A DNA stretch of 64,000 bases from positions 4,402,001 through 4,466,000 of the forward strand of contig CP082844.1 in assembly GCA_019930625.1 (NCBI GenBank), read 5' to 3'. A model generated the notes under the pieces. The model did no database searches and was not told where the DNA came from. It saw only the letters and a list, made by a program, of their open reading frames with translations. Source of the DNA: Nocardia asteroides (GTDB lineage: Bacteria; Actinomycetota; Actinomycetes; Mycobacteriales; Mycobacteriaceae). This document shows positions 2,397-49,803 of this stretch, piece after piece (positions within the stretch are counted from its first letter, which is position 1; every line of letters begins with the position of its first letter). The position numbers and the translations under genes are program-made.

Positions 2397-2864
2397 TCAG
2401 GCCCTGGTTTTGCGCGGGGCGACCGCGCGGATCGTCTCGATCACAACGCTGAGCGGCGGACGGCGGGCTCCTGCCTCGGGCGAGCGGATCCACACGCGGT
2501 ATCCGGTGCGCTCGTCGTCCGGCGAGGGCAGTACCACCTGGCTGCCCGCGCAGGCCACCGCCGCGTACAGGCGGAACAATTCGGCCGAGATCGGCGGCCT
2601 GAACGCGTCGGGCCCGGCGGGGCCGGTGAGGAAGGTCCAGTGCCTCGCGCGGGGGTGCTCGACGACCGGGCCGGCGATGCCGACCTGGACGAGTCGCCGC
2701 AACACCTGCTCGCCGAGTTCGGCGGGCATGGTGACGGCGCCGTAGTCGATGCCGATGTGCAGGAGAATGCGATGCGAACCGGGATCCATCGATACCGGCA
2801 GCTGGAATTCGCGGCGGTAGCGTTGGCAGCGAAGTTCCGGCGTCGAATCGAGAAATGTGGTCAC
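2397..2864 (-). CDS. Uncharacterised small protein, paralogue of the gene at 49124-49582
   Basis: A 155-residue soluble protein of unknown function. It is clearly homologous to the protein encoded at 49124-49582. Shared blocks in order are 'GAVTMPAELGEQV', 'GPVVEHPRARHWTFLTGP', 'AELFRL' and 'GSQVVLPSPDDERTGYRVWI'; the partner reads 'GAITMPARLGQEV', 'GPIISHPRSKRWTYLVRP', 'AELFRL' and 'GAQIALPSPADRSPCFRVWI'. The layout (strand-helix, GPV/I, RW-aromatic, LPSP, R-V-W) recalls small stand-alone actinobacterial domains sometimes labelled primase/polymerase N-terminal-like, but I see no catalytic motif and do not claim that activity. It stands alone here, convergent with rpe, in the place where mycobacteria carry ribD. 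GTG start. Confidence 0.7.
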   Translation of the reverse strand: MTTFLDSTPELRCQRYRREFQLPVSMDPGSHRILLHIGIDYGAVTMPAELGEQVLRRLVQVGIAGPVVEHPRARHWTFLTGPAGPDAFRPPISAELFRLYAAVACAGSQVVLPSPDDERTGYRVWIRSPEAGARRPPLSVVIETIRAVAPRKTRA

Positions 2865-3438
2865 ACCGCGCCCCCAACTGTGTCCGGCCCGAATTGTCCC
2901 ACTGTGTTCTCCGGCTTTCTCGAGGAGTGGACATCATGCGGCGGGCTGCGCGGTCCGTAGGCCGTGTGCCCTGGTACAGCGTCCGATCGAACTGCTCGTG
3001 CGGAAAGTTGAACGTGAGAAGTCAGCCGCATAACGATATCGCTTCCCACGTCTTCGACGCGCGGAATCTCCGTTATAGCAGTGTTTCGTTAGGGTATCGA
3101 CTATAAATCGGCAACCCCCCTTCGGGGTGAATTAATTCGCACAGTACAGCGAATTCCCTCGAATGATTACTTGAACCTGTGCCGCCCGGCGAGCGCGGCC
3201 GGTGTGGACATATTTCGTTCCATTCTCGATGGGACCGACCGGTTCCAGCATCCCCGGCGTGGCCTGCGGTCTGCTTTTCGCCGAGCACGCCGGAGTGTCA
3301 TCGCGTCGCGTGACCGGTCCGGGACGCCGCTGTCTCCTGCGACCGCGCGTCATTAGGGTGAGGAGACCAGGGAATAGCAGCCGGGCCCCGCGCTGTTCCG
3401 CAACCGGAAGACAACGACGCGACAGGGAGTCAGAGCAC
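2865..3438. other. 574-bp region without a supported gene, upstream of ribE
   Basis: No open frame here has convincing codon use. The stretch around 2990-3180 is clearly less GC-rich than its surroundings, with several AT-rich runs near 3070-3140. A short CCCC-TTC-GGGG hairpin is at 3117-3127 and is too weak to call a terminator. A TAGGGT hexamer at 3354-3359 could be the -10 of a ribE promoter. In M. tuberculosis, from memory, rpe is followed by ribG and other genes before the riboflavin synthase gene. None of those is present here. Confidence 0.5.
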
Positions 3439-4062: not shown

Positions 4063-4265
4063 CCGGGACCGCCCGCTCGCCGAGTGCGCGGCGGCGAGCG
4101 CGATAGCCCCTTCCGGTTCCGGGGAGTTCCGGGATGGCGGAGCGTGCCGGCGTCTGCGACGCGATGGTGAGCATGGGAGGTCGCCGGACACGCAGCGCCG
4201 CGGGCGCCGCAAAACCAACCCAGTACTGTGGTGAGGCACCTATTTCGAGATGGAGCACAGCAGAC

Positions 4266-5510
4266 GTGACCAGGTTCGACAGCATCGAGCGCGCAGTCGC
4301 CGACATCGCCGCCGGTAAGGCGGTCGTCGTCGTCGACGACGAGGACCGTGAGAACGAGGGCGACCTCATCTTCGCGGCGGAGAAGGCCACTCCGGAACTG
4401 GTCGCCTTCATGATCCGCTACACCTCCGGTTACATCTGTGTGCCGCTCACGGGCGACGATTGCGATCGGCTCGGCTTGCCTCCGATGTACGCGATGAACC
4501 AGGACAAGCACGGCACCGCCTACACCGTCTCGGTGGACGCGCGCGAAGGCATCACGACCGGCATCTCCGGCGCCGATCGCGCCACCACCATGCGGCTGCT
4601 TGCCGACGCCGACGCCAAGGCCGACGATTTCACCCGGCCGGGGCACGTGGTGCCGCTGCGCGCCAAGGATGGCGGTGTGCTGCGCAGGCCCGGCCACACC
4701 GAGGCGGCCGTGGATCTTTCTCGGATGGCAGGCCTGCGTCCGGCGGGCGTGATCTGCGAGATCGTCAGCCAGAAGGACGAGGGCCACATGGCCCGCACCG
4801 AGGAGCTGCGCGTCTTCGCCGACGAGCACGAGCTGGCGATGATCTCGATCGCCGACATGATCGCGTGGCGGCGCAAGCACGAGAAGCACGTGGTGCGCGT
4901 CGCCGAGGCGCGTATCCCCACCGCGCACGGCGAGTTCATGGCCGTGGGCTATCAGAGCATCTACGACGAGGTCGAGCACGTCGCGCTGGTGCGCGGTGAC
5001 ATCAGCGACGGCGAGGACGTCTTGGTGCGGGTGCACTCGGAGTGCCTGACCGGTGACGTGTTCGGGTCGCTGCGGTGCGATTGCGGTCCGCAGCTGGACG
5101 CGGCGTTGGAGATGGTCGCGGCCGAGGGCCGCGGTGTGGTGCTGTACATGCGTGGTCACGAGGGGCGCGGCATCGGTCTGATGCACAAGTTGCAGGCATA
5201 CCAGCTGCAGGATTCCGGCCACGACACGGTCGACGCGAATCTGGAGCTGGGGCTGCCCGCGGATGCCCGCGACTATGGCACGGGCGCGCAGATCCTGGTG
5301 GATCTGGGTATTCGCTCGATGCGGCTGCTCACCAACAACCCGGCCAAGCGGGTCGGTTTGGACGGCTATGGTTTGCGGATCACCGAGCGGGTGCCGATGC
5401 CGCTGCGCGCCAATGCGGAGAACCTGCGCTACTTGCGCACCAAGCGGGACCGGATGGGGCACGACCTGATCGGCCTCGACGAGCTCGATCTCGGCGAGAC
5501 GGCGCACTGA
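4266..5510 (+). CDS. ribBA: Bifunctional 3,4-dihydroxy-2-butanone-4-phosphate synthase / GTP cyclohydrolase II
   Basis: A 414-residue fusion. Residues 1-205 form the RibB half, which makes the four-carbon precursor from ribulose 5-phosphate; the acidic metal site '[15 protein letters not shown]' and 'HTEAAVDL' are present. Residues 206-414 form the RibA half, which opens GTP; the zinc ligands are the Cys residues of 'HSECLTGD' and 'LRCDCGP', and the catalytic stretch includes '[13 protein letters not shown]'. Both halves look complete, so this one gene starts both branches of riboflavin synthesis. GTG 4266 is chosen over upstream in-frame codons because a GGAG site precedes it and family homology begins there. 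ribH follows 30 bp after the stop. Confidence 0.96.
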
Positions 5511-46737: not shown

Positions 46738-47304
46738 TCAGTTCGGATGGTCGGCGCTGGTTCGGCGTGGATGCCCGAGGAGCGCTTTCCAGGCCGCCTG
46801 CCATGGGAAGTGGGGCAGACGCGCTTCCCCGGTGCCTCGCTCGTGCGGTTCACCCTCACCGATCACGATGGTTACGCCCCAATCGGACAGCTTGCGCAAC
46901 CCCTCCTGAATGGCGGGAAAGCTGATCTGCGCGCGATTCGAGTAAGGCACGCCCACGATCGGCAAACCCTTGCCGAGCCCTTCGACCAGCAGGCCGAGCA
47001 GAAGCGTATCGGATATGCCCGCAGCCCATTTCGCGATCGAGTTGCCGGTGAGCGGAGCGGCGATGATGCCGTCGGCGGGCGGCAGCACATCCGGCGTGCC
47101 GGGTTCCTTGTACTCGCTGCGCACGCGATAACCGGTTTGCGCCGCGATCGCGTCGGCGTCGATGAACCGCGTGCCGGATGGCGAGGCGATCACGCATGTG
47201 ACCCAGCCATCCGCTCGAGCCAGGGTGATCAACTTGCCGACATCACGTGCGGCGGGCGAGCCGGTCACCAGGGCGTACAGCACGGGATTTCCATTGGCGT
47301 CCAC
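46738..47304 (-). CDS. Flavoprotein (phosphopantothenoylcysteine-decarboxylase-like)
   Basis: A 188-residue flavodoxin-like protein: 'VLYALVTGSPAARDVGKLIT' for the phosphate loop, 'DGWVTCVIASPSGTRFID', 'PADGIIAAPLTGNSIAKWAAGISDTLLLGL' in part (the FMN-contacting 'APLTGNSIAKWA'), and 'GKGLPIVGVPYSNRAQI'. This matches the HFCD/PPCDC flavoprotein fold, but the usual His at the active site is not obvious, so the reaction is unknown. It reads in the same direction as the XRE regulator 171 bp upstream; such regulator-flavoprotein pairs recur in actinobacteria in my recollection. GTG start. Confidence 0.82.
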   Translation of the reverse strand: MDANGNPVLYALVTGSPAARDVGKLITLARADGWVTCVIASPSGTRFIDADAIAAQTGYRVRSEYKEPGTPDVLPPADGIIAAPLTGNSIAKWAAGISDTLLLGLLVEGLGKGLPIVGVPYSNRAQISFPAIQEGLRKLSDWGVTIVIGEGEPHERGTGEARLPHFPWQAAWKALLGHPRRTSADHPN

Positions 47305-47475: not shown

Positions 47476-48711
47476 TCAGGTGGGGACGGCGCCGATGCGT
47501 TTGGCGAGGCGGCCCAGGTCGCCGGTGGTGAGGTCGCGGCGGGCGGTGCGCATCATGTGGCCGACGAGTTCGCGGACGTGGGTCATGCCGCGGATTTGTT
47601 GGGGGGCGATGTGTTCGGCGCGCAGCAGGGCGTGCAGGGAGTTGCGGTAGTCGCGCCGGAGGGCGTGGGCGCGGCCGATTTCGACGAAGTATTGGGCTCG
47701 GCGGCCTTCGGCGGGGATTGTCTGGGGGTCGAGGGTGGGGGCGAGTTCGAGGACCTGTCCTGGTTCGCGACGTTCCATGGCTGCCGACATCTGCCACAGA
47801 GTGACGTTCGCGGCGTCGAACGTCGGGTTGCGCAGAGTCGCGGTTTCCGGGGGAACCTGAGCGAGGCGGGTCACTTGCTGGCGCGCTTCGTCCAAGTGAT
47901 CGCCCGGATCGCCACCGAGTGCGGCGGTGACGAGGGCGGCCTGTAGATGCAGCATGCCGTAGGTTTCGATTTCCCCCAGCGATCGCACATCCGAACCAAG
48001 GCGCTCGGCAACATCTGCCGCGCCGTCGAGAGCGGCTTTCAGTGAGCCTGGGCGCGACAAGAGGATTTGGCTTCGGGTGAAGGCGGCGGTCGCTGGACCT
48101 GATGTGCCACCGATGTTCGCGGTTGCGTACTCGATCTCCTGCGACGCTGTCCAAGCCAACGCCGGATATCCCCGCGCCTTCAAAGACGCGGCTGTCGTAT
48201 ATGCCGCCGCCGCGAGTACGTCCCACGCGACATCACGATCGGCTCCGGTCGAATCACGGGTGCGTCGATAGCAGTCGGTCAGCAAAGGAGGCAACAACGG
48301 TCCGAGCGCCGCGTAGTCGCACGCACGGCGCAGATGGGCGGCATGACGTGCTGTTGCGGCGAGGTCCTCGAGGCTGCGGGGCGGCGCAATCGGGGTGCTG
48401 TCGCCCCGGGTCCAGAGGGCGGTTTCGATAGCGGGCACTGCGGCATGGAATCCGGCCGACGACGGGTCGAACCGGTCGTCCTGGTCGCCGGTCAGGTCAC
48501 CGACCGCCACGCCGAGCGCCTGGGCGAGTGCGTGCAGAGTGCGCCGGGAGTCGATGGGACGCTCGCCGTTCTCGTACTTGGCGATGGCTCCCCGGCTGAC
48601 GCCGACGCGGTCGGCCAAGACTTGCTGCGAGATCCCCCGCCGTGCGCGAATGGTGCGCACTCGACGGCCGATGTACCGGCCTTCGTCGTCCTTCCGCAGA
48701 TCTTCGCTCAT
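47476..48711 (-). CDS. XRE-family regulator with a long TPR-like C-terminal region
   Basis: A 411-residue protein. Residues about 14-72 form a Cro/C1-type helix-turn-helix: 'GRRVRTIRARRGISQQVLADR' in part, 'VGVSRGAIAKYENGERPIDS', 'LHALAQALGVAVGDLTG'. The remaining 330 residues are helical and Ala-rich with repeated 34-residue-like units ('TIPAEGRRAQYFVEIGRAHAL', 'RNSLHALLRAEHIAPQQIRG'), as in actinobacterial TPR-containing regulators of the NsdA/abaA-like type. ATG 48711 has a GGAGAG site; the longer open frame upstream is non-homologous. It is divergent from the small-gene operon, with a 21-bp palindrome between them. Confidence 0.87.
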   Translation of the reverse strand: MSEDLRKDDEGRYIGRRVRTIRARRGISQQVLADRVGVSRGAIAKYENGERPIDSRRTLHALAQALGVAVGDLTGDQDDRFDPSSAGFHAAVPAIETALWTRGDSTPIAPPRSLEDLAATARHAAHLRRACDYAALGPLLPPLLTDCYRRTRDSTGADRDVAWDVLAAAAYTTAASLKARGYPALAWTASQEIEYATANIGGTSGPATAAFTRSQILLSRPGSLKAALDGAADVAERLGSDVRSLGEIETYGMLHLQAALVTAALGGDPGDHLDEARQQVTRLAQVPPETATLRNPTFDAANVTLWQMSAAMERREPGQVLELAPTLDPQTIPAEGRRAQYFVEIGRAHALRRDYRNSLHALLRAEHIAPQQIRGMTHVRELVGHMMRTARRDLTTGDLGRLAKRIGAVPT

Positions 48712-48764
48712 CGGCTCTCCCTCGCCGGGTGCTGATCGAAAACCCCATGCTAGACGCGTTGCCA

Positions 48765-48785
48765 GCTGTCCCGCACCGGGACAGC
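48765..48785. promoter_or_regulatory. Perfect 21-bp palindrome between the XRE gene and the small-gene operon
   Basis: Arms GCTGTCCCG (48765-48773) and CGGGACAGC (48777-48785) match over all nine bases around a CAC centre. On the leftward strand TAGCAT (48752-48747) is a good -10 for the XRE gene, and the palindrome covers its -35 position. The placement fits an autoregulatory operator for the XRE protein that could also control the divergent genes starting at 48927. Confidence 0.7.
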
Positions 48786-48926
48786 GCGGGTTTCGCTGCC
48801 CGCCAAGCTTTCTCGAGCACTCGCCCTGACACGGGCCGGCCATGCGCGCGGCGCGTCGGTGCGCCGCACATCGGTTGCGCTCGCCCGGTGGGTGCTCACA
48901 ACGAACGAGCAGGGGAAGGCAAAGTG

Positions 48927-49127
48927 ATGCGGGGAAAGCTTTTCGCGTGCGCGCGGTACGACATGTCCGTGGAACCGGACGCTGACGACATCGTGGCGCG
49001 GCCGGTCGCCGACTGGTACCAGCATGAGGTCGGCGCGAGCTGCGCAGCCGGTGTGGAGCTCGAGCCGGGTTCGACGCTATGGCTACTGGGTTGCGGCGCG
49101 TCGGCCGCGGCGGAGAGCGCGCGGTGA
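48927..49127 (+). CDS. Small hypothetical protein, first of a chain of overlapping small genes
   Basis: A 66-residue protein ('MRGKLFACARYDMSVEPDAD', 'ADWYQHEVGASCAAGVELEP', 'GSTLWLLGCGA'). It has three Cys residues and no signal peptide, and I know no family for it. The ATG has an AGGGGAAGG site. Its stop overlaps the next start as GTGA, which supports real translation. It is divergent from the XRE regulator, with a perfect palindrome in the 215-bp gap. Longer forms of this frame upstream of 48927 are not supported. Confidence 0.6.
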   Translation: MRGKLFACARYDMSVEPDADDIVARPVADWYQHEVGASCAAGVELEPGSTLWLLGCGASAAAESAR

Positions 49128-49582
49128 GCGAACCCGCCGATCCGGCGGCCGACACCCCGGTCAGCCGGTGTCGCTTCTACCGGCAGTGCGGACTCGCGGC
49201 GGCCGTGCAACCGGAGCTCGGGCGCATCATCGTGCCCGCGGGACGGGTGGGCGCGATCACCATGCCCGCTCGTCTCGGTCAGGAGGTGAAGGCGCTGATG
49301 CAGGTCCGGCGGGCGGCGCTGGGGCCGATCATCTCGCATCCGCGCTCGAAACGCTGGACCTATCTGGTGCGGCCGGACCTGCCCGACGAGGTCGGCTTGT
49401 TCGCCGAACTGTTCCGCCTGGACGTGTCGGTCGCCCGCTGCGGTGCGCAGATCGCGCTGCCTTCGCCCGCCGACCGGTCACCGTGCTTCCGGGTGTGGAT
49501 CGAACCGCCGCGCGACACGTTCCGGCCATCGGGCTCGGTCGTGGTCGCGGCGATTCGTCAGCGCACAGGGCGCCGGTGGTGA
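49124..49582 (+). CDS. Uncharacterised small protein, paralogue of the gene at 2397-2864
   Basis: A 152-residue soluble protein. It shares the block order 'GAITMPARLGQEV', 'LGPIISHPRSKRWTYLVRP', 'AELFRLDVSVARCGAQIALPSP' (in part) and 'CFRVWIEPP' with the protein at 2397-2864. Conserved His-Pro-Arg, Arg-Trp and Leu-Pro-Ser-Pro motifs suggest a defined binding or catalytic site, but none that I can name. GTG 49124 overlaps the preceding stop by four bases (GTGA), and its own stop overlaps the following start in the same way. It is the largest gene of the operon divergent from the XRE regulator. Confidence 0.72.
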   Translation: MSEPADPAADTPVSRCRFYRQCGLAAAVQPELGRIIVPAGRVGAITMPARLGQEVKALMQVRRAALGPIISHPRSKRWTYLVRPDLPDEVGLFAELFRLDVSVARCGAQIALPSPADRSPCFRVWIEPPRDTFRPSGSVVVAAIRQRTGRRW

Positions 49583-49803
49583 CCGCGCCGGACCAGCCGT
49601 CGCCACGGCCGGAGGAGAACGATGTCCACCTGTCGGTCCAATTCCATGATGTGCGTTTGGATTTCGCGGCCTGCGCGACCGCCGCCGCGTTGTTCGTCAA
49701 GGAATGGCGTTCCCGTCACTACGAGGATGCGGTGACGGTGCTGCCGGATGATCCGACCGGTCTACCTCGCCTGCCCAACGAGAGGCTGTTCCTCGACCCG
49801 TGA
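49579..49803 (+). CDS. Small hypothetical protein, third of the overlapping chain
   Basis: A 74-residue acidic protein ('VHLSVQFHDVRLDFAACATA', 'AALFVKEWRSRHYEDAVTVL', 'PDDPTGLPRLPNERLFLDP'). A strand-helix-strand pattern can be drawn but no family is recognised. The GTG start overlaps the preceding stop as GTGA, so translation is probably coupled to that of the 152-residue protein. The stop codon itself sits in a further GTGA context (see 49800). Confidence 0.6.
   Translation: MTAPDQPSPRPEENDVHLSVQFHDVRLDFAACATAAALFVKEWRSRHYEDAVTVLPDDPTGLPRLPNERLFLDP

Follow-up and report, generated by a model that had tools for sequence, protein, structure and literature searches.

The closest described systems to the locus studied here are the WhiJ-BldB loci of Streptomyces, which occur as many paralogous copies per genome and set an XRE-type regulator beside small proteins such as AbaA or IosA (PMC10294661, PMC4255298). 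In S. venezuelae, WhiJ9 is reported to act from the intergenic region between iosA and whiJ9 as an activator of iosA, and seems to repress its own expression; when BldB, which is related to the DUF397 proteins, is lost, iosA is reported to rise about 750-fold at 14 h, and the same source found no solved structure similar to its model of IosA (PMC10294661). Here we analyze a cassette from Nocardia asteroides, located in a 64,000-nucleotide stretch of contig CP082844.1 (positions 4,402,001 to 4,466,000; hereafter the window). It consists of a 411-residue XRE regulator and, divergent from it, three small plus-strand genes, A, B, and C, joined by successive GTGA overlaps (A/B and B/C); the gap between the divergent genes contains a perfect 21-bp palindrome (table 1). 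An earlier note on this DNA had described each of these elements, and all were confirmed. On balance we favor a model in which the XRE regulator controls the divergent A-B-C operon through the palindrome, and in which the main product of that operon is B, predicted to be a non-catalytic primase-polymerase (Prim-Pol) fold.

A WhiJ-Type Layout with a Different Partner

The plan of the cassette recalls the Streptomyces loci in several respects. Just as iosA lies across an intergenic region from whiJ9, a divergence implied by the reported promoter positions (PMC10294661), B lies across the gap from the XRE gene; moreover, IosA (15 kDa, isoelectric point [pI] 10.3, according to the same source) and B (16.8 kDa, pI 10.9) are alike in size and charge, a likeness that is not a claim of homology. 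The window regulator has the XRE-type helix-turn-helix (HTH) and is matched over its full length by phrog_5823 (PHROGs, E 6.7e-58). Nonetheless, three features that define WhiJ-BldB-AbaA loci are missing: DUF5753, the WhiJ C-terminal domain, is not detected in this XRE by Pfam; no DUF397 gene is called beside it, the next called gene downstream of the regulator being a flavoprotein (46738-47304); and where AbaA carries a HATPase_c domain, the divergent side here has a gene for a predicted Prim-Pol fold and, after it, C. Neither A, B, nor C has a Pfam match, and the tetratricopeptide repeat (TPR) which the earlier note had attributed to the regulator is not found in it by Pfam. The view that the set matches no known system was nevertheless too strong, since it is laid out like WhiJ/BldB/AbaA-type loci and differs in the partner. 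On present evidence, and by analogy, the cassette appears to be a WhiJ-type multi-copy regulatory locus in which a dead Prim-Pol takes the place of the effector; it lacks three defining features and yet would work like its counterparts. No pairing of a Prim-Pol or primase with an XRE-type regulator was found in the literature searched (titles, abstract starts, and term counts; best 20 matches; few subscription papers).

Table 1. Features of the Cassette and of a Related Gene in the Window
Feature	Coordinates	Strand	Basis or remark
XRE (Cro/C1-type HTH) regulator, 411 aa	47476..48711	-	Pfam HTH_31, E 1.6e-14
CTAGAC block adjoining the palindrome, presumed promoter element	48750..48755	.	Present in 9/9 loci with window-type XRE
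Perfect inverted repeat, likely (putative) XRE operator	48765..48785	.	GCTGTCCCG-CAC-CGGGACAGC; core TGTCCCG-NNN-CGGGACA
A, fast-evolving leader or coupling frame of 66 aa	48927..49127	+	Conserved SD-like stretch, ATG, open frame
B, 152 aa, predicted Prim-Pol fold without catalytic residues, pI 10.9	49124..49582	+	AlphaFold model, profile chain
C, 74-aa acidic partner protein, pI 4.7	49579..49803	+	Motif LPRLPxERL; 8-copy genome family
B paralogue without XRE neighbor	2397..2864	-	Between rpe-like gene (by eye) and Lum_binding (riboflavin-synthase-like) gene

Conservation and Decay of the Unit

The order XRE / A-B-C is maintained in nine orthologous loci (the window and L079-L086). The palindrome is conserved along with it: the pattern GTCCCGC(A/T)nCGGGAC is kept in all nine loci with a window-type XRE, and is gone at L087, where another putative regulator occupies the place of XRE. 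When the 212-bp gap was shuffled 2000 times with dinucleotides preserved, 51 shuffles had an inverted repeat with arms of at least 9 and a spacer of at most 8, a chance of about 2.5%, and the conservation among orthologues argues further against a fortuitous origin. The 17-bp core has its sole exact match in its own genome here, with five more sites at one mismatch; these near copies (G000 375815-375831 and four other sites) are possible further targets of the window XRE.

Three further loci document how the cassette is altered or lost. At L087, B and C remain, B at 84% identity, and a 437-residue protein with TPR and a weak HTH match (E 0.023) replaces XRE. L257 has lost B and C together with the N-terminus of XRE, and L258 has lost XRE and most of B but retains C. 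These same loci bear on the flanking genes, the flavoprotein and a kinase (50191), both of which had been put forward as associates. The flavoprotein is present at L086, L087, L257, and L258, and at L259-L261 it occurs without XRE, B, C, or the kinase; the kinase is present at L257 and L258 and was not found in the fetched 12 kb at L086 and L087, both of which have B-C. Given that no kinase was seen in the stretches fetched at two loci with B-C, and that both genes persist beside broken cassettes, we regard them as neighbors only.

The association extends to the many paralogues of B. A set of 82 stretches (81 from Nocardia, and L161 from another family) gave 87 B hits, or 86 once a second fragment at L142 was dropped. 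The nearest upstream neighbor of at least 90 residues was divergent and within 1 kb for 69 of the 87 hits, on the same strand for 17, and lacking for one. Among these 69 divergent neighbors HTH_31 was found in 40 and DUF5753 in 27, and a DUF397 gene stood on the divergent (B promoter) side at 27 of the 86 copies; WhiJ-type traits missing from the window cassette recur at other B copies. For comparison, 100 genes were drawn at random from the 334 others in the loci, and the first 70 were scanned: HTH_31 was not among the 25 families listed of the 85 in these controls. A hidden Markov model (HMM) built from 14 of the neighbors matched 48/69 neighbors (34/55 non-seeds) as against 0/70 controls. 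The loci are not independent: most come from the top-scoring B hits, and nine are orthologues of a single place.

Outside the genus, 60 loci with a distant B or a degenerate Prim-Pol were inspected, 32 from the same order and 28 from other orders of the class. A divergent XRE HTH was found in 13 of the 32 (L117, L124, L131-L135, L137-L139, L185, L192, and L193), which belong to three further families (f7, f14, and f15), with five loci in genus g22 and five in g46 and g65; the gene caller is simple, and chose the wrong strand for XRE at L192 and L193. No XRE was found within about 1.5 kb at the other 19 same-order loci, nor at any of the 28 from other orders (L194-L221). As judged from gene order, the pairing of XRE with a degenerate Prim-Pol is older than Nocardia and spans four families of the order, that of Nocardia included. 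Two arrangements were noted by eye in addition. At L188 (53-730), in another family, a DUF5753-regulator-like gene missed by the XRE HMM lies on the same strand as a degenerate Prim-Pol and ahead of it. At L179 (1225-1869, minus strand, and 2450-3319, plus strand), an active-type Prim-Pol gene lies near a divergent XRE-looking gene, with an excisionase-like small gene between them, which may point to an origin of the pairing in a mobile element.

Could B and XRE be mere neighbors without joint function, B being an independent repeat-family protein that falls by chance beside one of the numerous XRE genes? The large numbers of paralogues, together with the 28/28 loci of other orders that have no XRE nearby, would suit this explanation. 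Yet the enrichment of HTH_31 and of HMM matches over the controls, the divergent orientation, the recurrence in other families, and the joint loss at decayed loci already disfavor it, and we hold it to be very improbable. Conversely, it is highly probable that XRE, the palindrome, and B-C form one unit. The proposal that all four proteins do so is upheld by the nine orthologous loci and the joint loss for XRE and B-C, with the palindrome, but not for A as a conserved protein component.

The Nature of B, A, and C

The AlphaFold model of B (pLDDT 91) resembles the Prim-Pol fold, and a chain of profiles through bridge proteins connects B to the Pfam Prim-Pol family (PF09250), two of the bridges (L137 and L138) passing the Pfam cut-off; a direct match to this Pfam family was found for none of the 74 B-family members, at thresholds up to E 1. 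In Prim-Pol enzymes, catalytic motif I is D-x-D/E and motif II a His. At the position of motif I, B reads T-M-P (residues 46-48), without a catalytic Asp pair, and at that of the motif II His all 74 members have a Trp (W78), followed by a nearly invariant Thr (T79). In the comparison set A5, on the other hand, D62 and D64 are invariant, and the His is present in 7/8 rows. Thus, B is predicted to have the shape of a Prim-Pol but to lack its catalytic residues, and its likely role is in gene control rather than DNA copying. Relative to the Prim-Pol / archaeo-eukaryotic primase superfamily (PF09250; pRN1 ORF904), B is alike in predicted fold and joined by a distant, bridged sequence relation; it differs in being a single 152-residue domain, in its lack of the Asp pair and the His, and in its chromosomal regulator context. 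The SCO3374 family (NCBIfam NF040464) gives weak partial matches, over about 40 residues, to the copy at 2397-2864 (E 7.4e-4) and to L137 (E 1.8e-4), at 19-21 bits against a curated cut-off of 110, and none to the window B; the name SCO3374 was not mentioned in the literature searched. Many of the 120 listed B homologues carry at NCBI the name "DNA-directed RNA polymerase subunit beta," which no analysis here supports and which is likely a misannotation.

A dead Prim-Pol might act directly on the regulator. As an anti-repressor or ligand sensor, B would bind a nucleotide or nucleic acid and then release XRE from DNA. The joint decay of XRE and B at L257 and L258, and their pairing in four families including that of Nocardia, are in line with this idea, as is the report that the noncatalytic primase subunit PriX, related to PriL and not to Prim-Pol, can bind NTPs (PMC5700102). 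However, L087 combines a different putative regulator with an 84%-identical B, so that a fixed XRE-B contact seems unneeded, and many B copies occur without XRE. We consider this role of B possible, but rather unlikely.

The three small genes differ sharply in how they evolve. In all nine loci, A starts at a conserved ATG that follows a likewise conserved CAGGGGA-type stretch, and its frame stays open for 66-126 codons, in eight different lengths, to end in the GTGA overlap with B. Omega, computed for five of the possible orthologue pairs, is 0.5-1.3 for A, as against 0.10-0.22 for B and 0.12-0.18 for C. Furthermore, A is single-copy in its own genome and was matched in 4/148 sampled Nocardia genomes, its own included. 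We thus infer from these sequence patterns that A is a leader frame, the translation of which matters while its product does not. On the same substitution patterns, B and C are under purifying selection, and C is the second conserved component: its start overlaps the stop of B in the same nine loci, and of the eight C copies in the genome, seven follow a same-strand B copy at a distance of up to 1 kb. The expectation that the small proteins keep their order is borne out for B and C.

Downstream of B, C is found at 51 of the 86 copies, and a gene for a DUF4254-like protein at 11. The latter protein is about 142 residues long (e.g. L032 4633-5058, L098, and L102); ten of these 11 loci are without C, and eight of the 11 also carry a DUF397 gene on their divergent flank. 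At L042, a C-like frame (4112-4321; 24% identity to the window C) lies upstream, not downstream, of B, and adjoins a 71-residue small protein resembling, by eye, one at L045.

A basic B beside an acidic C, in a patchily present locus, would also suit a toxin-antitoxin-like module, in which XRE represses and either B or C is a toxin neutralized by the other small protein or by XRE; indeed, a type II toxin-antitoxin role has been proposed for pairs of an XRE regulator and a small DUF397 gene next to it (PMC6262351, PMC10364602). Nevertheless, for the Scr1/Scr2 pair that prediction was reported not to be borne out (PMC10364602). None of A, B, and C has a convincing match to a toxin family in Pfam, NCBIfam, PADLOC, or PHROGs; PADLOC gave weak matches of A to PDC-M18A (0.0096) and of C to Cas7_IIIh (9e-4), both judged due to chance. 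Moreover, C is kept at L258 though most of B is lost, and the B copy at 2397-2864 stands without XRE or C. A toxin-antitoxin module is, in our estimate, improbable.

Spread of the B Family and Proposed Mechanism

The earlier note had recognized a homologue of B at 2397-2864. This relationship is real (E 7.4e-26), yet two copies understate the family, which numbers 20 in this genome at E 1e-3 or better. Each of the 148 sampled Nocardia genomes has at least two copies, and ten genomes have 20 or more; because the search scored at most 26 candidates per genome, the high counts may be underestimates. Among 298 sampled genomes of the order, the B profile was matched by 52, from 12 of 76 genera, with no match in the other genera of Nocardia's own family. 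Two other genomes (L159 and L175) have the 2397-2864 copy at the corresponding position, and this copy may represent an ancestral, housekeeping member of the family. These two genomes have only three and two B matches, respectively.

Returning to the model in which XRE acts through the palindrome, the cassette follows the plan of WhiJ9-iosA, with B-C in the place of iosA, and we therefore propose that XRE controls A-B-C and itself in a comparable way. XRE would bind the palindrome, governing both its own gene and the A-B-C operon, and A would be translated mainly to pass ribosomes on to B. The basic B and the acidic C would then act together, and B may keep a nucleotide- or nucleic-acid-binding surface. 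B-C would be the output of the switch, as IosA and AbaA are for WhiJ-type regulators in Streptomyces, or B may feed back on XRE. More tentatively, and with somewhat less than even confidence, we suggest that a Prim-Pol lineage lost catalysis and came to be the regular partner of XRE switches. Such a pseudo-primase, sensing nucleotides or single strands, would be paired divergently with XRE regulators in four families of the order, with 20 or more copies in some Nocardia genomes, and would have its own operators, leader frames, and exchangeable downstream partners (C or DUF4254).

The replacement of the regulator at L087 and the joint decay at L257 and L258 offer natural experiments on this unit. 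Our findings provide a predicted structure and a likely role for a family that can reach 20 or more copies in one Nocardia genome, and they offer a concrete and testable protein for asking what the small partner proteins at XRE loci do in actinobacteria. If the proposal is true, the fold of a replication enzyme would have been reused for gene control.
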